Assembly: GCA_902806085.1 (NCBI GenBank)
Contig: CADCVH010000047.1
Span: 1-36,525, forward strand
Length of the DNA: 36,525 bases
Source: an uncultured Rubrobacteraceae bacterium
GTDB taxonomy: Bacteria; Actinomycetota; Rubrobacteria; Rubrobacterales; Rubrobacteraceae
Direction: 5' to 3'
Shown one piece after another: positions 13,090 to 33,122 of the stretch. The stretch's first letter is position 1; every line of letters starts with the position of its first letter. The translations under genes were made by a program, and so were the position numbers. The notes below the pieces were generated by a model. The model did not search any database. It had not been told where the DNA came from and was given only the letters and a program-made list of their open reading frames with translations.

Positions 13090-14283
13090 ATGACCCAAGA
13101 ATCGACGCGCCCTTCGTCCGGGGTGGACCTGTTCTCCGACGAGGCGCTGATGGACCCGTATCCGCGCTACGAGCAATTGCGTGAGGCCGGTGGTGCGGTC
13201 CATCTGGACGCCGCCGGTGCCTTCGCCCTCCCGCGCTACGCGGAGGTCCGCTCCGCCCTCGCCGATTGGCAGACGTTCTCGTCCCGCGGCATCGGCTTGA
13301 CCGAAGAGAGAAACGAGGCGATGGTCGGGACGATACTGGCCTCGGATCCGCCGGAACACGATGCCCTAAGAAAGACGATAGATTACGGTCTTTCGCCCCG
13401 AATCCTCAGGCAAGAGGCCGAGGCGACAATAAAGCAGAGGTCAGAGGAGATCGTGGAGGATGCGGTCGCGCGGGGCAGCTTCGACGCCGTAAAGGACCTG
13501 GCCCAGGCGTTTCCCTTATCCGTGGTGTTGGACCTGATCGGGCTGCCACAGGAGGGACGGGACCGGGTGCTCGACTGGGCCGACGGCGCCTTCAACTCCT
13601 TCGGGCCTGAGAACGAGAGGATGCGCTCCGGGGCGACCTCCGTCGAGAACCTGTGGGGCTACCTGTACACGTCCGTCACGCCCGATCGTCTCGCACCCGG
13701 AAGCATGGGCAGGAAAGTATACGAGGCGTCCGAGCGTGGGGAGATCCCGCCGGAGACCTGGATCGTGCAGATGGCGGCCTTCATCACCGCCGGGCTCGAC
13801 ACCACGATCAACGCCATAGGCAGCGGCATCTGGCTCTTCGCCACGCACCCCGACCAGTGGGACCTGGTCCGGGAGGACCCGGAACGCATGATCCCCATGG
13901 CCTTCAACGAGATCTTGAGGATCGAGTCCCCGGTCCAGTTCTTCGGCCGACGGGTGACCCGCGACCACGAGGTGGACGGCGTCCCGTTGCCCGAAGGGTC
14001 CCGGGTGCTCCTGATGTACGGGTCCGCCAACCGCGACGGGCGCAAGTGGGAAGACCCGGAACGTTTCGACGTGCTGCGTAACCCCGTGGATCACCTGGCC
14101 TTCGGACACGGCGTCCACAAGTGCGCCGGACAGGGCCTCGCGCGTATGGAGTTCGCCGCCGTGTTCGACCGCCTCGCGCGCACGGTCCGCCGGTTCGAGA
14201 TAGACGGGGAGCCCGAACGCCACCTCAACAACGTGGTACGGGGCCTCTCGAGCCTACCCGTGAGCGTACAGCGGACCACTTGA
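13090..14283 (+). CDS. Cytochrome P450
   Basis: A 397-residue soluble bacterial P450. The I-helix oxygen-activation motif is AGLDTT (residues 234-239), the ExxR motif runs from Glu274 to Arg277 (NEILR), and the haem-binding loop FGHGVHKCAGQGLAR places the axial thiolate at Cys345. All three landmarks are intact and the length is normal. ATG 13090 follows CAGGAG. No ferredoxin or ferredoxin reductase gene is adjacent, so electrons must come from elsewhere in the genome. In this context an O-demethylation or hydroxylation of an aromatic ether or ring is plausible; the substrate is unknown. Confidence 0.95.
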   Translation: MTQESTRPSSGVDLFSDEALMDPYPRYEQLREAGGAVHLDAAGAFALPRYAEVRSALADWQTFSSRGIGLTEERNEAMVGTILASDPPEHDALRKTIDYGLSPRILRQEAEATIKQRSEEIVEDAVARGSFDAVKDLAQAFPLSVVLDLIGLPQEGRDRVLDWADGAFNSFGPENERMRSGATSVENLWGYLYTSVTPDRLAPGSMGRKVYEASERGEIPPETWIVQMAAFITAGLDTTINAIGSGIWLFATHPDQWDLVREDPERMIPMAFNEILRIESPVQFFGRRVTRDHEVDGVPLPEGSRVLLMYGSANRDGRKWEDPERFDVLRNPVDHLAFGHGVHKCAGQGLARMEFAAVFDRLARTVRRFEIDGEPERHLNNVVRGLSSLPVSVQRTT

Positions 14284-14341
14284 GACCGCTTGAGACGGTA
14301 CGGTTACGAAACAGGGGAAGATCCCGGAAGGAGGAGAACGC

Positions 14342-14929
14342 ATGTCGGAGCGAGACGGGGCGATGATCCGGCCCAAGCTGCACCACGTCAACCTGAAGAC
14401 GACGCGCCCGCAGGAGATGATCGACTGGTACGCGGACGTGGTCGGCTCGGAGGTGACTTTCCAGTTCCCGGGCGGAGCCTGGCTGACCAACGACGAGGCG
14501 AACCACAGGATCGCGCTTCTGCACTCGCCGCGCCTCTCGGACGACCCGGAGAAGCTCGCGCACGCCGGGATGCACCACTTCGCCTTCGAGTACGGATCCG
14601 TGGACGACCTCCTGGCGACCTACGGGCGGCTCAAGGCCGAAGGGATCGAGCCGCACATGGCGCTCGACCACGGGATGACGACCTCCATCTACTACGTCGA
14701 CCCCGACGGCAACTCCGTGGAGCTGCAGTCGGACAATTTCGGGGACTGGAAGAAGTCTATGGAGTTCATGAAGTTTTCTCCGGAGTTCGCCGACGACCCC
14801 ATCGGCAAGTTCTTCGACCCGCAGAAGATGCTCGACGCACGCGAAGCGGGCGCCTCCGAGGAGGAGCTCCACCGGCGCGCCTACGCGGGCGAGTGGCACG
14901 TCGAGTACGACCTACGCATCCCTCTATAG
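14342..14929 (+). CDS. Single-module VOC dioxygenase-like protein
   Basis: A 195-residue VOC protein. The metal ligands expected of an extradiol-type or glyoxalase-fold enzyme are His15 (LHHVNL), His79 (MHHFAFEY) and Glu127 (NSVELQSDNF). After the module, a 60-residue tail (KKSMEFMKFSPEFADDPIG and onward) is characteristic of a subgroup of catechol 2,3-dioxygenase-like proteins. ATG 14342 follows GGAAGGAGGAG. It is 21 bases upstream of a second FAD hydroxylase, repeating the hydroxylase/VOC pairing seen at 1816-5209. Confidence 0.83.
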   Translation: MSERDGAMIRPKLHHVNLKTTRPQEMIDWYADVVGSEVTFQFPGGAWLTNDEANHRIALLHSPRLSDDPEKLAHAGMHHFAFEYGSVDDLLATYGRLKAEGIEPHMALDHGMTTSIYYVDPDGNSVELQSDNFGDWKKSMEFMKFSPEFADDPIGKFFDPQKMLDAREAGASEEELHRRAYAGEWHVEYDLRIPL

Positions 14930-14950
14930 AGCAGAGGAGGCGCAACCATC

Positions 14951-16648
14951 ATGCGCAACAACGAGTTCGACGTGGCCGTCGTGGGCTACGGCCCCACGGG
15001 GCAGATGGCCTCGATCCTGCTGGGGGAGATGGGCCACCGCGTCGCCGCCTTCGAGAGGTGGCCGACGACCTACCCGCTGCCGCGCGCCGTGCATTACGAC
15101 GACGAGATCGCCCGGGTCTTCGGGCTGGCCGGGGTCTCCGACGAGGTTCGCGAGATCACGGACCCCGTCCCGGACTTCTACGAGTGGCGCAACAAAGACG
15201 ACGAGATCCTGCTGCGCCTCGACTGGTCGCAGCAAGGCCTCTCCGGCTGGCCGGCGGCGAACTTCTTCTCCCAGCCGGACCTCCAGAGGGTGCTGGACGA
15301 GAAGGCCAAGTCGCTGCCGACGGTAGAGGTAAACCAGGGCTGGGAGGCCCAAGATATCTCGCACCACGACGACCGCGTGGAGCTGACGGTCCGCAAGGGC
15401 CATCCCGGTCGGGGGGGCGAGTGGATGCCGGAGGGGGAGACGAGGACCGTCCGGGCGCGCTACCTCGTAGGCGCCGACGGCGCGAACAGCCTCGTGCGCC
15501 GGCACATGGGCGCGCCGGTCGCCGACCTCGGGTTCGACTTCGACTGGCTCATCCTGGACGTCGTCCCGCACGAGGAGCGGGTTTGGAGCCCGATGAACTG
15601 GCAGCTTTGCGATCCTGCGCGCCCGACCACGATAGTCTCCGGTGGTCCCGGCCGCAGGCGTTGGGAGTTCATGCGGCTGCCCGGGGAGAGCATCGAGGAA
15701 CTCAACACCGAAGAGACCGCCTGGCGGCTGCTGGAGCCTTGGGGCAGAACCCCGGAGAACACGACGCTCGAGAGGCACACGGTGTACAGGTTCGGGGCCC
15801 GCTGGGCGGAGTCCTGGCGGCAGGGGAGGCTGCTGCTCGCCGGCGACGCCGCCCACCTCATGCCGCCTTTTGCCGGGCAGGGGATGTGCTCGGGCCTCAG
15901 GGACGCCGTCAACCTCTCCTGGAAGCTCGACCTCGTCCTCCCCGGGAAGGCCTCCGACGCGATCCTGAACACCTACGAGTCCGAGCGCCTCGTCAACGTC
16001 CGCCATTTCATAGACTTCTCCGTCGAGCTTGGCAGCCTGCAGTGCGTCACCGACCCGCAAGAGGCCTCCGAGCGGGACGGGCGGATGATCGCCGCGCGGG
16101 AGGACCCGTCCACGGCGCCCCCGATACCCAACCCGCCGCACAGGCTCGGGCCGGGCCTCCTGCGCGAGGGGGATCCGCTGGTGGGCATGCTCTCGATCCA
16201 AGGGCAGGTGCGTTTCGGCGAGGGGACCGGCCTGTTCGACGACGTGGTCGGGAACGGATGGACGGTGCTCAGTCCCGTGGCCGACCCCCGGGACGTGCTC
16301 GACGGGGAGCAGCTGGCGTTCCTCGACGAACTCGGCGCGCACCTGGTAAGGGTGACGACGTCGGAAGGGGCGCCCGGCGACGGAACGGTCGTCGACCTGG
16401 AAGGCAGGTACGCCGGATGGTTCGAGGAGGCCGACGTCGAAGCGGTGGTGGTCCGCCCCGACTTCTACGTCTACGGCACCGCCAGCAAGATGGCCGAGCT
16501 CCCGCGTCTCGTCTCGTCTTTGCGGGCGGAGCTCGGACGGGTCGAGCCCCCGTCGTCCGCCGAAGCGAGATCCTCGAGCGCGCCACCGCCCTTGTCCGAC
16601 GCCGCGCCGGAGACCAACCGTCAGAGCGCGGATTCGGCAAGACGGTAG
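14951..16648 (+). CDS. MhpA-like FAD aromatic hydroxylase
   Basis: A 565-residue class A flavin monooxygenase most like 3-(3-hydroxyphenyl)propionate hydroxylase (MhpA). The Rossmann motif GYGPTG is at residues 12-17. RYLVGADGANSLVRRHMG carries the DG motif and LLLAGDAAHLMPPFAGQGMC has the GD motif with Asp299. The C-terminal 40 residues are Ser/Pro-rich and may be disordered. It would hydroxylate a phenolic acid to a catechol for the VOC enzyme encoded just upstream. ATG 14951 follows AGAGGAGG. It is a distant paralogue of the gene at 3548. Confidence 0.9.
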   Translation: MRNNEFDVAVVGYGPTGQMASILLGEMGHRVAAFERWPTTYPLPRAVHYDDEIARVFGLAGVSDEVREITDPVPDFYEWRNKDDEILLRLDWSQQGLSGWPAANFFSQPDLQRVLDEKAKSLPTVEVNQGWEAQDISHHDDRVELTVRKGHPGRGGEWMPEGETRTVRARYLVGADGANSLVRRHMGAPVADLGFDFDWLILDVVPHEERVWSPMNWQLCDPARPTTIVSGGPGRRRWEFMRLPGESIEELNTEETAWRLLEPWGRTPENTTLERHTVYRFGARWAESWRQGRLLLAGDAAHLMPPFAGQGMCSGLRDAVNLSWKLDLVLPGKASDAILNTYESERLVNVRHFIDFSVELGSLQCVTDPQEASERDGRMIAAREDPSTAPPIPNPPHRLGPGLLREGDPLVGMLSIQGQVRFGEGTGLFDDVVGNGWTVLSPVADPRDVLDGEQLAFLDELGAHLVRVTTSEGAPGDGTVVDLEGRYAGWFEEADVEAVVVRPDFYVYGTASKMAELPRLVSSLRAELGRVEPPSSAEARSSSAPPPLSDAAPETNRQSADSARR

Positions 16649-20885: not shown

Positions 20886-21647
20886 ATGGCTATCATGAGC
20901 GAGACGGCGGTTACCCGGGCGGGCGGCTCGGCGGACAGGAGAGCGGGCACGAGGGAGCGGATCGTGCGCGCCGCCGCCGGGTTGTTGGCCGAGGGCGGCC
21001 GTGAGGCGGCCTCCACGCGGGCGGTGGCCGCGGCCGCCGGGGTGCAGCCGCCGACGATCTACCGCCTCTTCGGCGACATGCGTGGGCTGCTCGATGAGGT
21101 TGCCGCCTTCGGGTTTTCGGAGTACCTGCGCGACAAGGTAGCGCGGGAGCCGGAGGAGGACCCGGTAGAGGACGTGCGCCGGGGGTGGGACCTGCACGTG
21201 GGGTTCGGCCTCGCCAACCCGGCCCTGTACACGCTCATGTACGGGGATTTCAGGCCCGGGGCCGGGCCGACCGCGGCGCTAGAGTCTTTCGAGAACCTGC
21301 ACGGCCTGGCCCAGCGGATAGCAGAGGCCGGCCGGCTGCGCGTAAACGTGGAGCGGGCGGCGGCCATGATCCACGCTGCCGCGATGGGCGTCGTACTCTC
21401 CCTCAACGCCGCTGAGCCGCAGGAGCGCGATCCCGGGCTCTCAGAGGCGACCCGCGAGGCGATACTCGCCGCTATGACCACGGACGGACCCGGCGAGACA
21501 GCGACGGAAGGGGACGGCCGGGACCGGGCCGCGAACCGCGCCGTGGCCTTGAAGGCCGTCTTGCCCGAGGCGGGGGAAGGGCTCACGCCCGGCGAGCGGA
21601 TGGTGCTGTCGGAGTGGCTCGACCGGCTCACCCACGACGCCCGCTGA
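20886..21647 (+). CDS. TetR-family regulator
   Basis: A 253-residue protein. The N-terminal helix-turn-helix covers residues about 18-65 (TRERIVRAAAGLLAEGGREA, then TRAVAAAAGVQPPTIYRLFG), followed by a helical ligand domain. ATG 20886 or ATG 20895 (MSETAV) could be the start. It is transcribed away from the NmrA-like reductase gene, and the shared spacer contains an inverted repeat, so repression of both genes is the likely arrangement. The length is a little above the TetR average because of a long C-terminal tail. Confidence 0.9.
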   Translation: MAIMSETAVTRAGGSADRRAGTRERIVRAAAGLLAEGGREAASTRAVAAAAGVQPPTIYRLFGDMRGLLDEVAAFGFSEYLRDKVAREPEEDPVEDVRRGWDLHVGFGLANPALYTLMYGDFRPGAGPTAALESFENLHGLAQRIAEAGRLRVNVERAAAMIHAAAMGVVLSLNAAEPQERDPGLSEATREAILAAMTTDGPGETATEGDGRDRAANRAVALKAVLPEAGEGLTPGERMVLSEWLDRLTHDAR

Positions 21648-21694: not shown

Positions 21695-22048
21695 CTACCG
21701 CTCCAGGAGCGATACCTGTTGGAACCGGAGACCGGCCAGGATCTGCTCCACCCGCGCGTCGGACAGCGACCCGATCCGCTCCCCGAGATGGGCCTTCTCG
21801 ACCGAAGAGACCTGCGACACGACCACGACGCTCCTTTTGGTGAGGTTCCCCTCGCCCGCCTCGATCAGGACGTTGCCCGGCTCGCTCGTCCGGCGCGGGT
21901 TCGACGTCAGCGCGCACACGCTCACGGTGGCGACGCGCGAGTGGTTGAAGACGTCGTCCTCCACCGCGCGGGGATGGGAGTAGCCCGGGGCGGGTCCTCG
22001 CGATTCATCCGGCCCTACCCAGAACACGTCGCCGCGGTCGATACTCCT
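21695..22048 (-). pseudogene. PemK/MazF-like toxin gene without a clear start
   Basis: A minus-strand frame reads SIDRGDVFWVGPDESRGPAP, then EDDVFNHSRVATVSVCALTS, then LTKRSVVVVSQVSSVEKAHL and ends GLRFQQVSLLER. This is a PemK/MazF endoribonuclease fold over its full length. The only usual start in frame is a GTG at 22027, inside the conserved RGDV-W motif, which would remove the first strand. Upstream there is AGGAG but ATC where a start would be expected. No antitoxin gene precedes it; instead an SDR tail lies there. It is either inactive or started from an unusual codon. Confidence 0.55.
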
Positions 22049-22580: not shown

Positions 22581-23966
22581 TCAGTCCTGGTCCCAGTAGG
22601 TAACGCGGCCGTCTTTCTGGCGGACGAAGCGCACGCCCCCGTCTTGGGAGATCACCACCGCCAGCGAGCCCGGCAACGCCCCGCACAAACGGTAGGCCGA
22701 GCGGTGGCGGGTGCCCACCTCTTCGGCGCTCTCCTCCACCGTGCGCTCCCCTTCGAGGTCGAGCGCCCTCGACACCGTCCATACCGCCGGGAGCCTGCCG
22801 GAGATCTCCGCCCCGAAGCCCAGAAGCTCGTTGCGCATGCCCATGACCACCGCCCCGTCCGTGGCGGCGAGGTCGGAGATCAGGTGCGCCTGCTCGAAGA
22901 GAGCCTCGTCGAGGACCCCTATCTCCCCGTCGTCGGTCGTCTCGAACTCCGCCCAGCCCGCCGGCTCCGGATCGCTCCCGTCGGACGTGGCATGCAGTCG
23001 GGAGAGGCGCTCCAGCATGCCGACGATGAGGTCGCGGTAGCGCCAGCGAGACTCCCCCTCGGCGAAAGGGTACTTGATGTCCAGGTAGGGGTTCTCGCCG
23101 GAGAACTCCGACGCGAGCTCGGAGGGCACGAAGAGGACGGTCCCGCCGTGGTGGGCGTCGCGCACCACGGAGATCACCCGCTTCATCATGCGCCGGCCCA
23201 CGCGGAGACTCGTGTCCCGATCGAGAGGCGCCCACCGCTCGCCGGGGTTCTCCCCGGCACGGGCGCGGGCCCGCCCGTGAAGCTTCGCGACCTCCTCCGA
23301 AGGCCCGCGGAACCATTCCGGCAGCCACCTCGAATCGAACACGTCCATCCGGGCGCTCGACAGGTCGCCGCCCTCCAGCCGGCCGACGAATTGCTGCCCC
23401 TTGTAGACCTCCACTCGTCCCGGTCCCGCCACCTTGACGACCGGGACGGGCGGCAGCGGCGCGCCCGCACCCCTCCCGCCCTGGACGTCCCGGAGCCAGC
23501 GCGGGCCGGAGTGGATCAGGCCCCAAGTCCGCAGGCCGTTGCCCGTGGCGTCTCCTTTCGCGCCGATCAGCGAGCGGTGGAACGAGGCGGCCATCGACAG
23601 GCGCCTGAGCTCCCCGGGGGCGAACGAACGGGGCTCGGGGAACTCCAGCCGCTGCAGGCCCTCGGGCGGGCCCCCGCGGGGGCTGAAGAGGTCGGGTTCG
23701 GCCAGGACGGCGCGGAAGGTTACGGGACGCTCTTCCTCGCGCAGCATGCTCGCCTGGTAGCAGACCGCGAGCATCTCCTCCAGCGCCGCAACGTCGGGCG
23801 GCGCGGCGGCAGGGTCCCCGGTCCCGCTACCGGCCCGACCCCGGGCGGCGGGAGAAGCCGGGGCCGCCGACGTATCTTCCCAGCGTTCCATCACGAACCG
23901 GGCCAGATCCCCCGGATACGCCCATCGTGAGGCCCCACGCCCCGGAACCTCGAACCCGGGTGCCAT
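22581..23966 (-). CDS. DACNV-type protein with C-terminal DisA_N/diadenylate-cyclase-like domain
   Basis: A 461-residue protein from ATG 23966, chosen because GGGAGG lies four bases upstream (a TTG at 24014 is less likely). The last 130 residues resemble the DisA_N/DAC fold: AATDGAVVMGMRNELLGFGA near residue 368 carries the DGA motif, and EEVGTRHRSAYRLCG near residue 419 carries RHR, followed by LAVVISQDGGVRFV. These are the two sequence hallmarks of diadenylate cyclases. The N-terminal two thirds resemble the DACNV sensor region described for conflict- and signalling-associated cyclases, by memory of that family. Production of a cyclic dinucleotide from ATP is therefore plausible but unproven. 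Confidence 0.7.
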   Translation of the reverse strand: MAPGFEVPGRGASRWAYPGDLARFVMERWEDTSAAPASPAARGRAGSGTGDPAAAPPDVAALEEMLAVCYQASMLREEERPVTFRAVLAEPDLFSPRGGPPEGLQRLEFPEPRSFAPGELRRLSMAASFHRSLIGAKGDATGNGLRTWGLIHSGPRWLRDVQGGRGAGAPLPPVPVVKVAGPGRVEVYKGQQFVGRLEGGDLSSARMDVFDSRWLPEWFRGPSEEVAKLHGRARARAGENPGERWAPLDRDTSLRVGRRMMKRVISVVRDAHHGGTVLFVPSELASEFSGENPYLDIKYPFAEGESRWRYRDLIVGMLERLSRLHATSDGSDPEPAGWAEFETTDDGEIGVLDEALFEQAHLISDLAATDGAVVMGMRNELLGFGAEISGRLPAVWTVSRALDLEGERTVEESAEEVGTRHRSAYRLCGALPGSLAVVISQDGGVRFVRQKDGRVTYWDQD

Positions 23967-24281
23967 CCTGCCTCCCTCTTCCCTAACCTCCGGTGCGCTG
24001 CTCTGTTCTGGCAAAGGTGCCTCCCCCCGTGGCTAGCTACTTGCCCGGTCTCGCTCCCGCGTGGCCATGCTTCGACGGTCGTGTTCGCCTGGAAAATAGC
24101 ATCCCCCGACGCAGCGAACCGGATCCAACGGCCCTTTCCGAGCTCCCTACGCCGGGCGGGAAGCCTTTCGGTGTCGCGTGGCGCCGGCACGTCGAAGGGG
24201 GGGCGCTCGTGTTTAGGGCTCCAGCGCGACGGGTCGGCGTCGGCAGAAGAAGCGGCGCCTCCAACTCGACCCCGCGCGCTT
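23967..24281. other. No gene seen
   Basis: This stretch upstream of the cyclase-like gene contains only short, low-quality frames on both strands. A minus-strand promoter for the cyclase gene should lie here, but no convincing hexamer pair stands out. Confidence 0.3.
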
Positions 24282-24449: not shown

Positions 24450-25067
24450 TTATCTTGTCTTCGCGCCGACGGCGTCGCCCAGTTCGGCCTCATGGACGGG
24501 AGGCACGAGCGAGCGCGAAACCGTCTCCGCGATGAGGGAACGACGGCGGGCGTGCTCGGACTCTTCGTCCTCGAGGCTGGCCGCGTACGTGACGTTCACG
24601 GGCGACCACGTCATCGCGATGGCCGTGATAAGGCAGAACACCTCGTACGGCGCGAGCGCGGGATCGATAAGCCCCTCTCCCTGCGCGTCGGCGATGGCCC
24701 GGAGCTTGTTCTCGTCGCGGCCCTCGAAGCCGGCGAACAGGTCGCCGGTCGGTACCCGCTCCAGCCGGTTCCAGGTTGCCAGGCGCAGCAGCTCCGGGCG
24801 CTCGACGTAGGAGTCGTAGAGTCTTACGGCGTAGCCGGGGAGGTCGTCGGCGGTGAGCGGCACGGCGTTGAGGTTCGCCCTCAGGTTGTCGCGCAGGACG
24901 GCGTCGAATAGGCCGTCCTTGCTTCCGAAGTAGGAGTACATCTGCGACTTGTTGACGCCCGAAGCCTCCGCGATCCGGTCCACGCGCGCCCCGGCGATCC
25001 CGTGGGCGGCGAACTCGACCGTGGCCGCGTCCAGTAGTCTGCGTCTGCTGCGTTGACCATCACGCAT
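24450..25067 (-). CDS. TetR-family regulator, possibly leaderless
   Basis: About 205 residues from ATG 25067: MRDGQRSRRRLLDAATVEFA and then ARVDRIAEASGVNKSQMYSY, a clear TetR helix-turn-helix, and a helical ligand domain. A longer frame to 25142 exists, but its extra 25 residues look untranslated. No ribosome site precedes ATG 25067, and TACACT lies six bases upstream on the coding strand. A leaderless transcript beginning at the ATG would fit. A sequence shared with two other promoters of this region overlaps the expected -35 position, suggesting autoregulation. Confidence 0.88.
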   Translation of the reverse strand: MRDGQRSRRRLLDAATVEFAAHGIAGARVDRIAEASGVNKSQMYSYFGSKDGLFDAVLRDNLRANLNAVPLTADDLPGYAVRLYDSYVERPELLRLATWNRLERVPTGDLFAGFEGRDENKLRAIADAQGEGLIDPALAPYEVFCLITAIAMTWSPVNVTYAASLEDEESEHARRRSLIAETVSRSLVPPVHEAELGDAVGAKTR

Positions 25068-25094
25068 GGGAACAGTGTACCATTGACCTACTAC

Positions 25095-25116
25095 AAACAG
25101 ACCAGTTAGTTGTGTT
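25095..25116. promoter_or_regulatory. Candidate TetR operator, copy A
   Basis: On the minus strand the bases read ACAACTAACTGG and then TCTGTTTGT, an imperfect dyad with ACAA/TTGT ends. The site covers the position of a -35 element for the TetR gene that ends at 24450. The nine-base core ACAACTAAC recurs in copies B and C. Confidence 0.5.
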
Positions 25117-25149
25117 AGGAGCCGTTCCCTTGTACATTGCAAGTAATAT

Positions 25150-25164
25150 CCGGTTAGTTGTTCG
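25150..25164. promoter_or_regulatory. Candidate TetR operator, copy B
   Basis: The plus strand reads CCGGTTAGTTGTTCG; its complement contains GAACAACTAACCGG, matching copy C over GAACAACTAAC. It directly follows TAATAT (25144-25149), a possible -10 for the nitroreductase-like gene, so a bound repressor would block transcription. Confidence 0.5.
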
Positions 25165-25323
25165 AGCGTCCGATGCAGGGAGACGAGATAACGGTCGAGG
25201 ACCGGTTGGCTAGAACGGCCCGCAGACGGTCAACGTGTGCACGGAGACCCGGCCCTTACCGCGAGGTCGTGACGCCGACAGCCGTGTCTATGTCGCCAAG
25301 GCCGGTCGGCCAAACGTTGAGCG

Positions 25324-25377
25324 TTGCAGAGACCGGCATCAAGCGGACCTACCGATGTCGGGCGGCGATCTCTGCAA
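25324..25377 (+). promoter_or_regulatory. Structured 5' leader element
   Basis: TTGCAGAGA (25324-25332) pairs perfectly with TCTCTGCAA (25369-25377). Directly inside, CCGGCATC pairs with GATGTCGG with one G-U, leaving a 13-base apical loop and a seven-base bulge on the 3' side. The element ends about 20 bases before the ribosome site of the nitroreductase-like gene. It could act on translation or RNA stability. The rest of 25165-25411 shows no gene. Confidence 0.45.
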
Positions 25378-25411
25378 ACGGCGCTCTCTTAACAGTTTCG
25401 GAGGGGGACAA

Positions 25412-25852
25412 ATGCCAGAACGATCAGATATGGAAAACGCGGTGCGACGGGCGCTCGCCATCGACCGGTCGTCGCCCGCCATCGACCGAACGGTCGACAT
25501 CACCACGGTCGGCCGCCGATCCGGTAGGCCGCGCAGGATCGAGATCTGGTTCCACCGGGTCGGCGGCAAGCTCTACCTGAGCAGCCCTCCGGCGAGACGC
25601 GGCTGGTACGCCAATCTGCGGGCCAACCCGGCCTTCACCTTCCACCTCAAGAACTCGGTCGTCGCGGACCTTCCGGCGACGGCCAAGCCCGTCGCCGACG
25701 AGCGGGAGCGGCGCCGGATCCTCACGGAGATCGTCGATGACCTCAACCAGCCGAGCAACCCGGGCAGGATCGTGCAGCCGACCCACGTCGACGACTGGAT
25801 GGCCGGCAGCCCGCTTCTCGAGGTCTCCCTCGACGGATGGGACGATGGTTAA
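25412..25852 (+). CDS. DDN-type (F420-dependent) nitroreductase family protein
   Basis: A 146-residue protein of the deazaflavin-dependent nitroreductase group with split-barrel fold. The family block is visible as DITTVGRRSGRPRRIEIWFH, then GGKLYLSSPPARRGWYANLR, then ANPAFTFHLK. These proteins bind F420 (some bind FAD or haem) and reduce quinones or nitro compounds. ATG 25412 follows GGAGGGGG. A long leader with a stem-loop and a putative operator precede it. The exporter gene starts 12 bases after its stop, so the two form an operon that may handle a toxic quinone or drug. Confidence 0.85.
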   Translation: MPERSDMENAVRRALAIDRSSPAIDRTVDITTVGRRSGRPRRIEIWFHRVGGKLYLSSPPARRGWYANLRANPAFTFHLKNSVVADLPATAKPVADERERRRILTEIVDDLNQPSNPGRIVQPTHVDDWMAGSPLLEVSLDGWDDG

Positions 25853-25860
25853 GAAACCAT
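25845..25860 (+). promoter_or_regulatory. Small hairpin across the nitroreductase stop codon
   Basis: ATGGTT and AACCAT flank the loop AAGA and enclose the TAA stop of the nitroreductase gene. The next start (25865) lacks a good ribosome site. Translation of the first gene could therefore open the hairpin and promote re-initiation on the exporter gene. Confidence 0.3.
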
Positions 25861-25864
25861 ACTC

Positions 25865-27319
25865 ATGACCGCTCGCGCCGCGCCCGTCCGCGTCCCGACC
25901 ATCCTGGTCACACTGGTGACCGCGGCCCTCGCCTTCGCGCTGGCCCAGACCATGATCATTCCGGCGCTACCGGCGATCGGCGAGCAGTACGGCGCCACGC
26001 CGGAGACGACCACCTGGCTGCTGACCGCGTTCCTGCTGTCTGCCAGCGTCTGCACGCCGCTGGCAGGGCGCCTGGGGGACATCTTCGGCAAAGGCCGGAT
26101 GCTGCTCGCCGTGCTCGGGCTCTTCGGCATCGGGTTGGCCGTCTCGGCGGTCAGCGGGTCGGTCGCGGTGCTCATCGCCGGGCGCATCGTACAGGGCGCC
26201 GGGGGCGCCATCTTACCGCTGGCTTTCGGTATCGTCCGCGACGAGTTCCCGCGCGAGCGCGTCGCGACATCGGTCGGACTCATCAGCGCGACGTTCGGCG
26301 TGGGGGGTGGCCTCGGCCTGGTGCTCGCCGGCGCGTACGTGGACTATCTGTCGGTCGCCTGGATCTTCTGGTCCGCGACGGTCCTGACCGCCGCGGCGGG
26401 CTGGGCGACGTGGCGTTACGTGCCCGACTCGCCGGTACGCGCCCGGGCCAGGGTGGACGTGGCCGGCGCGGTGCTGATGTCGATCGGCCTGACCGCGCTG
26501 CTGCTCGCCGTGAGCCAGGGCAACGGCTGGGGATGGACGTCCGGGCGTATCCTCGGACTGCTCGCGGCGGCCTCGGTGACGCTCGTGGTGTTCGCCCGGT
26601 ACGAGCTCGGTCGGCGTGAGCCGCTCATCGACGTGAGGCTGCTGGCCGAGCGAGCGATGTGGACCACCAACCTCGCCACCTTCGCGGTCGGCTTCTCGAT
26701 GTTCGGCTCGTTCATTCTGATCCCGCAGCTCATCCAACTGCCGGCCTCGACGGGCTTCGGGTTCGGGCGCACGGCAACGGTCGCGGGGCTGATCATGCTG
26801 CCGAGCTCGATCGCGATGCTCTTGACGGGGCTGCTCAGCGGCCGGTTGGATGCGCGTTACGGCTCCAGGCTGCCGCTCGCGCTGGGCGCCGGATTCTCCC
26901 TGGTCGCCTCCGGGTTGCTGGTCGCACGCCACGCCACCCTCGGGGAAGTCTCGTTCGGCGCCTTCGCGATGGGCATCGGTATCGGGCTGGCCCTGGCCGC
27001 GATGGCCAACCTCGTCGTGGAGACCGTCCGGCCAGATCAGACCGGCGTGGCAACGGGGATCAACGCGGTCATGCGGACGGTCGGCGGGGCCATCGGCGCC
27101 CAGGCTGCGGCGTCGCTGCTGGCAGCCGACACCGTTGCCGGTGGACGCTTCCCGGCCGAGGCCGGCTTCACCGGGGCCTTCGCGATGAGCGGCGCGGCCG
27201 GACTCGTCGCGCTCGGGGCGGTCGCCCTGATCCCGGCCCGCCGGTCCGGGCAGGCCGAAACGGACGTACCGGCCGCACCCCGTCTCCCACCGCCCCCCCG
27301 CAAGCGAACCGGGGTATGA
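25865..27319 (+). CDS. MFS drug exporter, DHA2-like
   Basis: A 484-residue membrane protein with about 14 predicted helices, the number of the DHA2 (EmrB/QacA) group. The MFS loop motif A appears as LAGRLGDIFGKGRML (residues about 68-82), and the motif C region as SATFGVGGGLGLVLAGAYVD near residue 145. Helix 1 starts at about residue 12 with TILVTLVTAALAFALAQ. Proton-driven export of a hydrophobic compound is expected. ATG 25865 has a poor ribosome site and likely relies on coupling to the gene upstream. The C-terminal tail is Pro/Arg-rich. Confidence 0.92.
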   Translation: MTARAAPVRVPTILVTLVTAALAFALAQTMIIPALPAIGEQYGATPETTTWLLTAFLLSASVCTPLAGRLGDIFGKGRMLLAVLGLFGIGLAVSAVSGSVAVLIAGRIVQGAGGAILPLAFGIVRDEFPRERVATSVGLISATFGVGGGLGLVLAGAYVDYLSVAWIFWSATVLTAAAGWATWRYVPDSPVRARARVDVAGAVLMSIGLTALLLAVSQGNGWGWTSGRILGLLAAASVTLVVFARYELGRREPLIDVRLLAERAMWTTNLATFAVGFSMFGSFILIPQLIQLPASTGFGFGRTATVAGLIMLPSSIAMLLTGLLSGRLDARYGSRLPLALGAGFSLVASGLLVARHATLGEVSFGAFAMGIGIGLALAAMANLVVETVRPDQTGVATGINAVMRTVGGAIGAQAAASLLAADTVAGGRFPAEAGFTGAFAMSGAAGLVALGAVALIPARRSGQAETDVPAAPRLPPPPRKRTGV

Positions 27320-27728
27320 GACCGCATGGGGCTGCCAAACCACTGCGCCGAGACGGGTTGGCCAGAAGGGGAGCGGTACGGAGTCGCGGATACGTACGGT
27401 CGCGATGTGGCGGTTCCGATCGCCTCCCGCACCACCTGGCCGCCCGGAGCACGAAAACCTCTCCAGCCTACGGCTCGCCCGAGATCGTGTCGTGACCTAC
27501 CACGTCTCGGTGGCAGACCGGGATGGACAGCCCTTCACCGCGACGGAGGCGGAGTCTGAGGACCCCGGCATCCGGAACAAGAACGTGCCAAAGCGTGCGG
27601 CGAATAGCCCGTATTTCGACGCCCGCCGCGCCGTGATCGGGGTGATCCGTCCGCAAGGTCCGCTGCACGGTTTGACACATTTTTGACGCACTGTAACTTC
27701 TACACCTTTCTATGTAGCAAGGGAACGC
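27320..27728. other. Spacer without a supported gene
   Basis: Several short frames exist on both strands, none with family features. The best is a plus frame to 27686 containing VVTYHVSVADRDGQPFTATE, which has no good start. The last 110 bases become AT-rich and contain TTGACA (27672) and TTGACG (27683), so the promoter region of the molybdenum hydroxylase operon begins here. Confidence 0.3.
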
Positions 27729-27761
27729 TATACTGCACAAGAACAACTAACGGTTTGGTTC
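27729..27761 (+). promoter_or_regulatory. Promoter -10 plus operator copy C
   Basis: TATACT at 27729-27734 is a near-perfect -10 hexamer. GAACAACTAACGGTTTGG starts at 27741 and, with GTTC ending at 27761, forms a 21-base imperfect dyad with GAAC/GTTC ends. It covers the expected transcription start. It shares GAACAACTAAC with copy B and ACAACTAAC with copy A. No good -35 sits 17 bases upstream, so an activator or alternative spacing may be involved. Confidence 0.5.
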
Positions 27762-27799
27762 TATAACGGTAACGGTCGCGAGTGGGAAGAGGGGAGAGG

Positions 27800-28357
27800 A
27801 TGTTGCAGGACGACACGCGGAGCGAGGTTTCGCTGCGGATTAACGGCGTGGATCGCACCGTAGGCGTGGACAACCGCGCCACGCTGCTCGACACGTTGCG
27901 TGAGGGGCTCGGGCTCACGGGGGCCAAGAAGGGGTGCGACCACGGCCAGTGCGGCGCCTGCACGGTCCTTTTGGACGGCCGGCGGGTGAACAGCTGCCTC
28001 CAGCTCGCCGTCGCCGCGGACGGCGGCGAGGTCGTCACGATCGAGGGGGTGGCCGGGCTGGAAGGTGGGGGTGACCTTCACGCGCTCCAGCGCGCGTTTT
28101 TGGAGCACGACGCGCTGCAGTGCGGCTACTGCACGCCGGGCCAGATCTGCTCGGCGCTCGGGGCGATGGCCGAGGCCGAGCGCGGCTGGCCGAGCCACGT
28201 CACCGGCGACACCTCGGCCGGGGTCGCCGGCGCCGCCTCGCTCGACGCCTACGAGGTGCGCGAGAGGATGAGCGGCAACATCTGCCGGTGCGGGGCCTAC
28301 GGCGGCATCGTGGCCGCGGTCCTCGAAGTCGCAGAGGCCGACGGAGGGCGGTCGTGA
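27800..28357 (+). CDS. Molybdenum hydroxylase small (2Fe-2S) subunit
   Basis: A 185-residue iron-sulphur subunit of the xanthine-oxidase family. The plant-type cluster ligands are Cys46, Cys51 and Cys54 (GCDHGQCGACTV) and Cys66 (NSCLQL). The second cluster uses Cys108 and Cys111 (QCGYCTPGQI) and Cys162 and Cys164 (NICRCGAY). All eight are present. ATG 27800 follows GGGGAGAGG. It passes electrons from the molybdenum site to FAD in the next subunit, whose GTG start overlaps its stop by four bases. No export signal is seen, so a cytoplasmic complex is likely. Confidence 0.93.
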   Translation: MLQDDTRSEVSLRINGVDRTVGVDNRATLLDTLREGLGLTGAKKGCDHGQCGACTVLLDGRRVNSCLQLAVAADGGEVVTIEGVAGLEGGGDLHALQRAFLEHDALQCGYCTPGQICSALGAMAEAERGWPSHVTGDTSAGVAGAASLDAYEVRERMSGNICRCGAYGGIVAAVLEVAEADGGRS

Positions 28358-29355
28358 GGCCCTTCGCCTACGAGCGGGCGGAGGACCCGGCCGAGGCCGC
28401 GGCGCTCGTCGCGGAGCGGCCCGACGCCGCGTTCCTCGCCGGCGGCACCAACCTCGTCGACCTGATGAAACTGGGGGTCGCGGGCCCCGGCACGCTCGTA
28501 GACGTGAGGCGTCTGGGCTACGACCGCGTCGAGCACCGCGACGACGGCGGCGTCCTGATCGGCGCCACGGTGAAGAACTCGGAGTTGGCCGGCGACCCCG
28601 GCATCCGGCGACGCTTCCCCGCGCTCTCCCGGGCGATCCTCGCGGGCGCCTCGGGGCAGTTGCGTTCGGCGGCGACGACGGCCGGCAATCTCTTGCAGCG
28701 CACGCGGTGCGTGTACTTCCAGGACGTAACCAAGCCCTGCAACAAGCGCGAGCCCGGCTCCGGTTGCCCCGCCATCGGCGGCTCCCACCGCGACCTCGCA
28801 GTCCTGGGAACGTCCGACCACTGCGTCGCGACCTACCCCGGCGACATGGCCGTGGCGCTCGCCGCGCTCGACGCCCTCGTGCACGTGCGAGGCCTCGATG
28901 GCGAGGCCCGCGCGCTGCCGCTGGAAGACCTCTACGTCCTGCCCGGGGACACCCCGCACCGGGAGACCGTCCTGGAGCGCGGGGATCTCATCACCGGCGT
29001 CGAGCTGCCCGCCGCGCCGGCGGGCGCCGCTATGCACTACCGTAAGGTCAGGGACCGATGGTCATACGCGTTCGCGCTGGTCAGCGTCGCCGCCGTCTTG
29101 CGCACCGCCGGCGACGGGACCATCGACGAGGTCCGCCTCGCCCTCGGCGGCGTGGCGCCGCGCCCGTGGCGGGCGCGGACGGCGGAGTCCGAATTGATCG
29201 GGAAGCTACCCACCCCGGAGAACGTCCAAGCCGCCATGGGCGCCGAGTTGGCCGGGGCCAGGCCGCTGCCGGACAACGCGTTCAAGCTCGACCTGGCCAC
29301 CGACCTCGTCGGCGCCGTGCTGAGGGACCTGACCGAGCCTGAGGAGGACCGATGA
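28354..29355 (+). CDS. Molybdenum hydroxylase FAD subunit with extra Fe-S motif
   Basis: A 333-residue CoxM/YagS-like FAD subunit. FLAGGTNLVDLMKLGV and GATVKNSELAGDPGIRRRFP are the FAD-binding elements. Cys119, Cys129, Cys138 and Cys157 (within RCVYFQDVTKPCNKREPG, SGCPA and SDHCVAT) form a four-cysteine insertion like the one that binds an additional [4Fe-4S] cluster in PaoB/YagS and in 4-hydroxybenzoyl-CoA reductase. This makes the complex a member of that subgroup rather than a CO dehydrogenase. GTG 28354 overlaps the previous stop and the next start overlaps its own stop. Confidence 0.9.
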   Translation: MRPFAYERAEDPAEAAALVAERPDAAFLAGGTNLVDLMKLGVAGPGTLVDVRRLGYDRVEHRDDGGVLIGATVKNSELAGDPGIRRRFPALSRAILAGASGQLRSAATTAGNLLQRTRCVYFQDVTKPCNKREPGSGCPAIGGSHRDLAVLGTSDHCVATYPGDMAVALAALDALVHVRGLDGEARALPLEDLYVLPGDTPHRETVLERGDLITGVELPAAPAGAAMHYRKVRDRWSYAFALVSVAAVLRTAGDGTIDEVRLALGGVAPRPWRARTAESELIGKLPTPENVQAAMGAELAGARPLPDNAFKLDLATDLVGAVLRDLTEPEEDR

Positions 29356-31493
29356 GCACCACGACGCAACGCGCGACGGGCGCCCCGATCGTCCGTGTCG
29401 ACGGGCGCGCGAAGGTCACGGGCGCGGCCCAGTACGCCTACGAGTACCCGCTGGAGAACATGGCCTACGCCTGGCCCGTGCAGTCCACCATCGCTAAGGG
29501 ACGGGTCGAGTCGATCGACGACTCGGCGGCGCTCGCCCGGCCCGGCGTAATAGCCGTGCTCACCCCGGACAACGTCGCCAGGCTGCAGGTAGACGTGGAA
29601 CTGCCGCTGCCGTTCCTGGCGGCGGCGGTTCCCGACCTGTCCCTACTGCAGTCCCGCGAGGTGGCGTTCCGCGGCCAGATCGTCGCGGCCGTGATCGCCA
29701 CCTCGCTCGAGGCCGCGCGCGAGGGGGCCGGGGCCGTCGAGGTCGGCTACGAGGAGCAGGCGCACGACGCCGTCCTGCGCTTCGACGACGACCGGGCCTA
29801 CGTGCCAGGCGTCGTCAACGACTTCAGCCCGGGCAACGTCGAGCGCGGAGAGGCGGACCGGGCCTTCGCCGAGGCCCCGGTCCGGATCGACGCGACGTAC
29901 AGCACCCCGGCCGAGCACGCGGTCCCCATGGAGCCGCACTCGGCGACCGCGGCGTGGGACGGGGACCGGCTGACGATCTACAACTCCGATCAGGGGCCGT
30001 TCTACTCCTCCCTGCCCATCTCGGCCCTTTTCGGGCTAGATCCCGGGCAGGTCGAGATCGTCGCCGAGTACGTCGGCGGGGGCTTCGGCTCCAAGGCGGC
30101 CCCCCGTCCGCCGACCATGCTCGCCGCGCTCGCCGCGAGGCTGGTCGACCGCCCGGTCAAGGTCGCCCTCAACCGCCCGCAGTCGTTCTCTCTGACCACC
30201 TACCGCACCCCGACCATCCAGCGCCTCCGTCTCGGCGCCGAGCGAGACGGCCGCCTCGCCGCCATCGTCCACGAGAGCGTGCAGCAGAGCTCCACGCTCG
30301 TCGAGTACACGGAGCAGTCGGTCTCCTCCACGCGCTTGCTGTACGCCGCACCCGACGTGCGCACGACCGCCAGGGTGCGGCGGCTGGACGTCCCGACCCC
30401 CGGCTGGCTCCGGGCGCCGGGTGACGCGCCGGGCGTGTACGCGCTGGAGTCCGCGGTCGACGAGCTCGCGGTCGAGCTCGGCATGGATCCGATCGAGCTG
30501 CGCGTCCGTAACGAGCCCGACGCCGACCCGGAGACCGGCCAGCCGTTCAGCAGCCGTAACCTCGTCGGGGCCCTGCGAGAGGGCGCGGCCCGCTTCGGCT
30601 GGGAAGGGCGCGACCCCGCGCCGGCGTCCCGCCGTGAGGGCAACTGGCTGGTGGGCACCGGCGTGGCCGCCGCCCACTACCCCGCCCTCGTCTTCCCGTC
30701 GACCGCGCAGGCGCGCGCCGAGGCGGACGGCGGTTTCGTCGTCCGCGTCGGGGCCGCCGACATCGGCACGGGGGCCCGCACGGTGCTCACCCAGGTCGCC
30801 GCCGACGCCCTGGACGTCCCGCTGGAGCGGGTGCGCGTGGATATCGGGCGCGCCTCGATCGGCGTGGCCCCGTTCGCCGGGGGCTCCATAGGCACGGCCT
30901 CGTGGAGCTGGGCGGTGGAGAAGGCCTGCGGCGCGCTGCTCGATGCGGTGCAAGAGCACGGTGGCGTGCCCCCCGAGGGGCTCGAGGTCCAGGCGGACAC
31001 GACAGAGGACGTCGGTGCCTTGGCCGAGATGTCGCGCGGCGGCTACGGGGCGCAGTTCGCCGAGGTACGGGTGGACGTCGACACCGGCCAGATCCGGGTC
31101 GATAGAATGCTGGGCGTCTTCGCCACGGGGCGGGTCCTGAACCCCCGGACCGCCCGCTCCCAGATCGTCGGGGCGATGACGATGGGCCTGTCCATGGCGC
31201 TGATGGAGATAGCCGAGCCGGACCCGGAGTTCGGCGATTTCGCCAACCACGACCTCGCCAGCTACCACGTCGCCTCAAACGCCGACGTGCGCGACGTCGA
31301 CTGCGTGTTCCTGCACGAGGACGACAAGAACCTGAACTCCATCGGCGGCAAGGGTATCGGCGAGATCGGCATCGTCGGCGCCGCGGCGGCTATCGCCAAC
31401 GCCGTGCACCACGCCATCGGCCTGCGCGTCCGGGACCTCCCGATCCGCATCGAGGACGTCCGGCCCGCGCTGCAGGACCTGCGCGTCCGATGA
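29352..31493 (+). CDS. Molybdenum hydroxylase large (molybdopterin) subunit
   Basis: A 713-residue YagR/PaoC-like catalytic subunit. EYVGGGFGSKAAPRPPTMLA near residue 240 is the molybdopterin-contacting loop, and KGIGEIGIVGAAAAIANAVH places the catalytic base at Glu671. The length equals that of the periplasmic aldehyde oxidoreductase and HBCR-type subunits rather than xanthine dehydrogenase B. An aldehyde or N-heteroaromatic hydroxylation is expected. No twin-arginine signal is present on any subunit. No cofactor-maturation gene (XdhC/PaoD type) is adjacent; it may lie elsewhere. Confidence 0.93.
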   Translation: MSTTTQRATGAPIVRVDGRAKVTGAAQYAYEYPLENMAYAWPVQSTIAKGRVESIDDSAALARPGVIAVLTPDNVARLQVDVELPLPFLAAAVPDLSLLQSREVAFRGQIVAAVIATSLEAAREGAGAVEVGYEEQAHDAVLRFDDDRAYVPGVVNDFSPGNVERGEADRAFAEAPVRIDATYSTPAEHAVPMEPHSATAAWDGDRLTIYNSDQGPFYSSLPISALFGLDPGQVEIVAEYVGGGFGSKAAPRPPTMLAALAARLVDRPVKVALNRPQSFSLTTYRTPTIQRLRLGAERDGRLAAIVHESVQQSSTLVEYTEQSVSSTRLLYAAPDVRTTARVRRLDVPTPGWLRAPGDAPGVYALESAVDELAVELGMDPIELRVRNEPDADPETGQPFSSRNLVGALREGAARFGWEGRDPAPASRREGNWLVGTGVAAAHYPALVFPSTAQARAEADGGFVVRVGAADIGTGARTVLTQVAADALDVPLERVRVDIGRASIGVAPFAGGSIGTASWSWAVEKACGALLDAVQEHGGVPPEGLEVQADTTEDVGALAEMSRGGYGAQFAEVRVDVDTGQIRVDRMLGVFATGRVLNPRTARSQIVGAMTMGLSMALMEIAEPDPEFGDFANHDLASYHVASNADVRDVDCVFLHEDDKNLNSIGGKGIGEIGIVGAAAAIANAVHHAIGLRVRDLPIRIEDVRPALQDLRVR

Positions 31494-31542
31494 TCCGAAA
31501 CGACCGAGAACGGCGACCCCGCACCCCGGGTAGGGGAAAACC

Positions 31543-32493
31543 ATGACCGCCGGTGCGAACCGCGTCACGACGCCCTTCGGCGCTGGGTCCACCGCCGCGG
31601 AGGTGCTCGAGGGCATCGACCTCTCGGGCAGGCGGATGATCGTCACCGGCGCCTCCTCCGGGGTCGGCGTCGAGATCGCCCGGGCGCTTGCCGGGGCCGG
31701 GGCCGAGGTGACGCTGGCCGTGCGCGACACCGACGCGGGCGAAAGCACCGCCTCCGACATCGCCCAGACGAACGGCAACCCGCGCCCGCGTGTGGCAGCG
31801 CTCGACCTCGCGGACCAATCCTCCGTCGCGTCCTTCGTCGCGGGCTGGGAGGGTCCGCTCGATGCCCTCGTCAACAACGCCGGGATCATGATGCTGCCAG
31901 AACTCACCCGCACACCGGAAGGGTGGGAGATGCAGTTCGCCACCAACCACATGGGCCACTTCGCCCTCGCGGTGGGCCTGCACGGCGCGCTGGCCGCGGC
32001 CGAAGGCGGTGCCCGCGTCGTGTCGGTGAGCTCCAGCGGGCACGGGGCTTCCCCTGTCGTCTTCGGCGACATAAACTTCGAGCGGCGTGCCTACGACCCC
32101 TCGCTCGCCTACGGGCAGTCAAAGACGGCGAACGCGCTCTTCGCCGTGGCGGCGACGCGCCGCTGGGCCCCCGACGGCATCCTCTCAAACTCGCTGATGC
32201 CGGGCGGGATCTGGACGAACCTCCAGCGTCACTGGGACCCGAAGACGCTCGCGCGCATCAAGAATTCGGATCTTGGCCGCGCGGCCAAGACGCCCGAGCA
32301 GGGCGCTGCGACCTCCGTGCTGTTGGCGGCCTCCCCGCTGATCGAGGGCGTCGGCGGGCGCTACTTCGAGGACTGCCAAGAGGCCGAGGTCGTCCCGGCC
32401 ATTATCGACGGCGTCCATGGGGTCCGTGACTACGCCCTCGACCCTGCCGCGGCCGACCGGCTCTGGGACGAGTCCCTGCGCCTCCTGGGGTAA
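31543..32493 (+). CDS. SDR, retinol-dehydrogenase-like
   Basis: A 316-residue SDR. IVTGASSGVGVEIARALAGA is the cofactor motif, followed by LDALVNNAGIMM, VSVSSSGHG with the catalytic Ser, and AYGQSKTANALFA with Tyr and Lys. The N-terminal extension (TPFGAGSTAAEVLEGIDLSG) and long C-terminal tail (FEDCQEAEVV and LDPAAADRLWDESLRLLG) are typical of the retinol-dehydrogenase/WW-domain-oxidoreductase-like group. ATG 31543 follows GTAGGGGAAA. It lies 49 bases after the molybdenum hydroxylase and may supply or remove its aldehyde. A tail-only copy is at 22140. Confidence 0.9.
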   Translation: MTAGANRVTTPFGAGSTAAEVLEGIDLSGRRMIVTGASSGVGVEIARALAGAGAEVTLAVRDTDAGESTASDIAQTNGNPRPRVAALDLADQSSVASFVAGWEGPLDALVNNAGIMMLPELTRTPEGWEMQFATNHMGHFALAVGLHGALAAAEGGARVVSVSSSGHGASPVVFGDINFERRAYDPSLAYGQSKTANALFAVAATRRWAPDGILSNSLMPGGIWTNLQRHWDPKTLARIKNSDLGRAAKTPEQGAATSVLLAASPLIEGVGGRYFEDCQEAEVVPAIIDGVHGVRDYALDPAAADRLWDESLRLLG

Positions 32494-32711
32494 CCGGCAG
32501 GGAAATGGACGGCCCACGGTTAAGCGCCATCCGGGCCTGGCCGGGGCTCGGCGGTCAATCGCCCGACCGCCGACAACAAAAGGGCGACGACAAAGGAGCC
32601 GACACGGTGAAGGGCAGGCGGGGTGTTGGGCGGAGCCCCGGACGTCCCAACCGACGGCGGGTAGAGCGGCGACGATCCTCGAGGGTCCGTTCCGAGGCAA
32701 AGGAGACGAAC

Positions 32712-33122
32712 GTGGGGGAACAGGACACGGTACGGGAGCGGAACCTGGCGCTCGTGCGCAGGTTCTGCGAGGCCAGGGCCAACAAGGACCAGGAGGCGAT
32801 CATGGGGTGCCTGACCGAGGACGTCGTCTGGCGTTACCCGGGGCGCAACCCCCTCTCCCGGGAGTACCGGGGCAAGGAGGACGTGGCGGGCTTCTTCCGG
32901 GGCTTGCGGGAGGTCACCGGGGGCAACTTCTCGTCGGAGACCGAGCGGATCATGGCCGACGAGACCGCGGCCTTCGTGCACGAGCTTCCGCGCGGCACCA
33001 GGAAGGGGAAGAGCCTGGAGTGGCGCACGGTGCTCATGTTCCGGCTGCGCGACGGCAAGATCGCGGAGGTCGACGTCTTCCAGAACGTCCAGCACGAGCT
33101 AGACGAGTGGTGGAACTCGTAA
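32712..33122 (+). CDS. SnoaL/NTF2-like protein
   Basis: A 136-residue protein from GTG 32712, chosen because AAAGGAG lies six bases upstream and the product then begins MGEQDTVRERNLALVRRFCE, right before the fold. A GTG at 32607 with AAAGGAG would add 35 arginine-rich residues and is less likely. The NTF2-like features are the first helix, the strand around DVVWRYPGRNPLSREYRGKE, and the closing WRTVLMFRLRDGKIAEVDVF. It may act as a small isomerase or hydrolase on an intermediate or as a ligand-binding protein. The 218 bases upstream show no other gene. Confidence 0.82.
   Translation: MGEQDTVRERNLALVRRFCEARANKDQEAIMGCLTEDVVWRYPGRNPLSREYRGKEDVAGFFRGLREVTGGNFSSETERIMADETAAFVHELPRGTRKGKSLEWRTVLMFRLRDGKIAEVDVFQNVQHELDEWWNS

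Follow-up and report, generated by a model that had tools for sequence, protein, structure and literature searches.

In the window, by which we mean the whole stretch of 36,525 nucleotides analysed here, a single TetR-family switch very probably governs its own gene, the genes for an F420-type reductase and an exporter, and a molybdenum hydroxylase operon that includes a short-chain dehydrogenase (SDR), with repression that would be released by a ligand. The genes concerned and the three predicted operators, A, B and C, are as follows.

24450-25067, reverse strand: TetR-family regulator of 205 aa (Pfam TetR_N and TetR_C_21; recognition helix NKSQMY)
25096-25111, forward strand: predicted operator A, left half AACAGACC, right half AGTTAGTT, centred between 25103 and 25104
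25144-25159, forward strand: predicted operator B, left half TAATATCC, right half GGTTAGTT, centred between 25151 and 25152
25412-25852, forward strand: protein of 146 aa of the F420H2-dependent quinone reductase / deazaflavin-dependent nitroreductase family (PF04075, E 1.2e-9)
25865-27319, forward strand: MFS exporter of 484 aa, DHA2/EmrB-like (PF07690; TIGR00711 at 179.5 bits, below cut-off)
27745-27760, forward strand: predicted operator C, left half AACTAACG, right half GTTTGGTT, centred between 27752 and 27753
27782-28357, forward strand: molybdenum hydroxylase small (2Fe-2S) subunit, PaoA-like (Fer2/Fer2_2; best NCBIfam model PaoA, below cut-off)
28354-29355, forward strand: molybdenum hydroxylase FAD subunit (FAD_binding_5, CO_deh_flav_C)
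29352-31493, forward strand: molybdenum hydroxylase large subunit, PaoC-like (MoCoBD_1/2, Ald_Xan_dh_C; best NCBIfam model PaoC)
31543-32493, forward strand: SDR, PRK06196-like, a conserved partner of the regulator elsewhere
32505-33122, forward strand: SnoaL-like protein (PF12680), 11 bp after the SDR

The first-pass annotation had proposed a common site at three promoters, and we found ACAACTAAC at each of them: exact copies lie at 25105-25113 and 25153-25161 on the reverse strand and at 27743-27751 on the forward strand, and a search that allowed one mismatch found no other copy in the window. Nor is the motif scattered over the 4.41-Mb genome, whose exact copies number three and are the window's own, in two promoter spacers. 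The genome contains two copies of GAACAACTAAC, both in the same two spacers. A reversed control pattern of ACAACTAAC also has three genome copies, so that about three are expected from composition, and dinucleotide shuffles of both spacers contained some tripled 9-mer in 95 of 3000 cases (~3%). Because shuffles yield such triples, the repeat of a 9-mer by itself is weak, or mildly surprising, evidence. This shuffle frequency speaks for a chance coincidence with no regulatory meaning, an explanation that we nevertheless consider scarcely credible given the genome-wide exclusivity of the motif and the independent operator models, described below, that put A, B and C first. For the predicted operators, it is this exclusivity of ACAACTAAC together with its match to the operators of relatives, rather than the repeat itself, that we regard as decisive.

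The 9-mer is one half-site of a 16-bp dyad with the approximate consensus AACNRACYRGTTNGTT, since A shares its register with the dyads in the spacers of three relatives (L003, L004 and L005). In L003, the closest relative (TetR 76% identical), the spacer contains AACTAACC paired with AGTTGGTC and AACCAACT paired with AGTTTGTT, 48 bp apart, and the same 48 bp separate A from B; the actinomycetes L004 and L005 (TetR 56-57%) contain AACGAACT paired with GGTTCGTT and AACGAACC paired with AGTTCGTT, 54 bp apart. A palindrome in the regulator's own promoter region is conserved among relatives, and the dyad is kept upstream of the orthologous regulators. The two best dyads are spaced 42-58 bp apart in 33 of the 46 relatives, in a Deinococcus spacer the distance between two dyads is 53 bp, and a spacing of exactly 48 bp is found in the window, L003, L095, L151 and L157. 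The earlier description of A and C as imperfect dyads stands and can be refined, as B is also a dyad with a degenerate left half, perhaps through double duty as the presumed -10 element. In several relatives the half-sites overlap in 4-bp steps, which suggests that two dimers may bind one operator.

Operator matrices were built from relatives only, with the window left out, and used to score 36,510 window positions, among which A ranked first, C second and B third. A matrix built solely from the two L003 sites likewise placed A, C and B at ranks 1, 2 and 3, and one from L004, which amounts to two copies of one distant palindrome, placed A first, C second and B only ninth. To avoid hand-picking, 40 further loci were taken from actinomycete genomes, and palindrome-constrained EM was run on the 200 bp upstream of each of the TetR gene's 46 relatives (47-76% identity), again excluding the window. 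This analysis returned [AG]ACN[AG]A[CT][CT]-type dyads and, for the SDR-neighbour subset, AAC[CT]AAC[CT][AG]GTT[AG]GTT; the EM took in a large number of weak sites, with 305 expected in the 46 sequences. Under every 16-bp EM model A, B and C were the top three window positions, with B and C at ranks 2-3, although the three are not mutually independent, having been picked for a common half-site. A 20-bp EM motif with a 4-bp shift was set aside because the 16-bp dyad was easier to interpret. Besides the window, the full-model scan covered ~0.4 Mb of the genome, and in this own-genome background (399,700 positions, ~400 kb) no position scored as high as A or C, while at most one tied B, in one model. 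Among the listed genome-wide sites with at most two mismatches from the consensus, A came first and C second by the relatives' matrix. One operator-like sequence elsewhere in the genome, TACTGACCAGTTAGCT at 1346-1361 of contig C13 (G000, L065), overlaps a TATACT box ahead of a gene that looks like a polysaccharide chain-length determinant and is a possible further regulon site.

The predicted operators are placed relative to presumed promoter elements in a way that would be compatible with repression. At tetR, A overlaps the presumed -35, and the -10, TACACT, lies at 25074-25079 on the reverse strand; the left half of B is the presumed -10, TAATAT (25144-25149), of the F420-reductase/exporter promoter; and C sits ~10 bp downstream of TATACT (27729-27734). 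No sigma-70 promoter consensus scoring at least 9/12 was found in the region, so the transcription starts were placed from TAATAT and TATACT only. The tetR start is predicted to be leaderless, at 25065-25067, and a TATAAT-like box ~6-8 bp before the tetR ATG in the window, in L003 and in G005 suggests leaderless transcripts.

The F420-reductase gene begins ~250 nt past B, and the spacer between regulator and gene measures 344 bp, longer than the 200 bp that the rule for divergent TetR targets allows (PMC3511530), though the operator itself is close. By eye, the 250-nt leader before this gene contains a long imperfect inverted repeat (TTGCAGAGA...TCTCTGCAA, 25305-25380). We rejected two readings of the stretch between B and the gene: a riboswitch or structured leader, as the window has no Rfam match and folding was no better than that of shuffles (z -0.85), and a remnant of a neighbouring gene of the relatives, of which blastn gave no sign; the leader has no second copy elsewhere in the genome. 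Before the hydroxylase operon, one frame stays open for more than 100 codons within 27320-27690, part of it reading VTYHVSVADRDGQPFTATEAESED, and is perhaps a gene remnant. Downstream, no terminator-like site was found in the 31494-31542 gap, and the SDR has no dyad of its own, so that it is presumably read from the promoter at C. The SnoaL-like gene is possibly the last gene of this operon.

The regulator itself exceeds the Pfam gathering scores for both of its domains (TetR HTH, 51.6 vs 24 bits; TetR_C_21, 100.1 vs 26.2 bits). Its recognition-helix core, [NS][KR][AS]Q[LMIV]Y, is present in 47 of 47 proteins (the 46 relatives and the window's), with an invariant Q. Paralogues with NKRSIY or NQRSIY, one of them on contig C63 of this genome, mostly have AAGTAAC half-sites. 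Because recognition helix and half-site co-vary, the adjacent regulator is supported as the binder, and A, B and C are probably operators of this TetR-family repressor. The paralogous TetR gene on C63 (G000, L044: 8328-8927, 8969-10030, 10138-11097; ~40% identity) adjoins an aldo/keto reductase and an SDR that is 80% identical to the SDR of the window. We asked whether another regulator of the same family, such as this paralogue or the product of a second TetR gene at 20886-21647, might bind A-C instead. In favour, the paralogue has a similar dyad nearby and, facing it, an aldo/keto reductase together with a related SDR; against this, it differs in its recognition helix and has AAGTAAC half-sites, the A-C dyad tracks relatives of the adjacent TetR gene, and the TetR gene at 20886 lacks such a dyad in its upstream spacer. 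We therefore consider binding by another regulator very improbable. The C63 and window loci would be two related circuits in one genome, possibly insulated by one base of the half-site.

Gene context in other genomes bears on which genes the regulator controls. In 43 of the 46 relatives the regulator is divergent from, and within ~175 bp of, a gene for an oxidoreductase of alcohols or carbonyls: a zinc alcohol dehydrogenase in 33 relatives, an SDR in 7, an aldehyde dehydrogenase in 2 and an aldo/keto reductase in 1. The seven divergent SDRs (L043, L094, L138, L139, L141, L142 and L145) are homologues of 31543-32493 (61-78% identity), and the L003 operon also holds one, making eight loci in all; relatives of the regulator at ~45% identity on Deinococcus and Novosphingobium plasmids are likewise beside an SDR gene. 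These comparisons point to the SDR as the conserved target in the nearest relatives. Homologues of the F420-reductase (62-79%) adjoin the regulator in three relatives, L003, L004 and L005. The idea of a small TetR regulon, as first proposed, is thus upheld by dyad conservation and by the F420-reductase and SDR context, but not by the exporter or the molybdenum hydroxylase, neither of which is a conserved neighbour of the regulator among the 46 relatives.

This last result would also be expected if the regulator acted on its own gene and the F420-reductase/exporter operon through A and B only, with C a chance or decayed site and the hydroxylase regulated otherwise. In the same direction, the molybdenum hydroxylase operons of relatives (large subunit 49-54%) have no matching dyad except for one weak 11/14 match upstream of the L098 operon, which is probably due to chance. 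Yet C outscored B in most models, was second-best of the listed genome-wide sites, carries one of only three ACAACTAAC half-sites in the genome and lies where transcription presumably starts; its operon ends with the SDR found opposite the regulator elsewhere. We thus judge control through A and B only to be unlikely, and we retain C as a predicted operator of the switch. As the other hydroxylase operons are, but for that weak match, without such a site, it is site C and the SDR that place the hydroxylase in the regulon, which it probably entered via the SDR operon, in this lineage.

The target proteins were assigned at the level that their model scores allow. The F420H2_quin_red domain of 25412-25852 scores above its gathering threshold (38.8 vs 22 bits) and TIGR00026 falls just below cut-off; F420 is plausible as cofactor because the genome encodes CofD of F420 synthesis (score over cut-off). 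For the small and large subunits of the hydroxylase, the best NCBIfam models are those of the aldehyde oxidoreductase PaoABC, but the scores are far below the equivalog cut-offs (240 vs 322 bits for PaoA; 648 vs 1180 bits for PaoC), so the substrate may differ, and we classify the predicted enzyme only as a xanthine-oxidase-family molybdenum hydroxylase. Other genes in the window include a PemK/MazF-like toxin gene (21695-22027, reverse strand), a gene whose product has a DACNV sensor domain and weakly matches a DisA-type DAC domain (22581-24014), and cytochrome P450 and FAD-binding monooxygenase genes (13090-16648), a further oxidative set upstream of the operator region.

The best solved sequence relative of the TetR protein is PDB 2pz9 (E 7e-35, residues 6-180 aligned), listed as a 'putative regulatory protein', which we take to be SCO4942 of Streptomyces coelicolor; to our knowledge, this is a structural-genomics entry without a described regulon. 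The second-best, 2d6y (E 5e-26), is presumably SCO4008. The window regulator may be an orthologue of the Rv0067c type of mycobacteria. A literature search found no characterised close member of the regulator clade and nothing relevant on the operator string or the domain. SCO4008, according to a title cited in PMC4258057, is a repressor of sco4007 by multidrug recognition; like the window regulator it is a TetR protein, it controls its target gene by recognising drugs, and it is more distant than 2pz9. A survey in mycobacteria gives a predicted palindrome for the divergent TetR gene Rv0067c (MEME E 1.1e-29; PMC4482099). The likeness lies in a divergent TetR gene with a conserved palindrome, and in several of the relatives studied here the divergent gene is an SDR with homology to that of the window.

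Sites, exclusivity, conservation in relatives and oxidoreductase context were computed, and the model that follows adds what we infer on binding, repression rather than activation, operon structure and ligand class. Each predicted operator, a 16-bp dyad of AACNRAC-type half-sites, would be bound by a TetR dimer. A dimer at A would cover the presumed -35 of the tetR promoter, giving autoregulation; one at B would cover the presumed -10 and the start of the F420-reductase/exporter operon; and one at C would lie shortly after the point where transcription of the molybdenum hydroxylase-SDR operon presumably starts. Without ligand, the repressor would block all three promoters. An inducer, perhaps a small carbonyl-, aldehyde- or quinone-type compound, would bind the C-terminal domain and release the repressor, so that the oxidoreductases and the exporter would be made together. 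A reactive carbonyl or quinone-like inducer is suggested because the targets comprise carbonyl/alcohol oxidoreductases, a PaoABC-like hydroxylase, a quinone-reductase-like F420 protein and an exporter.

More tentatively, and at somewhat less than even odds in our estimation, the regulator may be one of a widespread clade of TetR repressors that respond to carbonyls or alcohols and are marked by the helix K-[AS]-Q-[LM]-Y, half-sites of the form AACNRAC and operators in pairs ~50 bp apart. In this lineage the regulon would then have grown beyond a single SDR to take in a full detoxification set, with the F420 reductase, the exporter and the molybdenum hydroxylase, possibly with two dimers per operator. 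As a type, such a regulon is ordinary and well known. With exact candidate operators given, it is testable, and the half-site differences between the paralogues suggest a simple hypothesis on how the recognition helix sets specificity. The link of an F420-dependent reductase and a molybdenum hydroxylase to a common signal could help to find their substrate.
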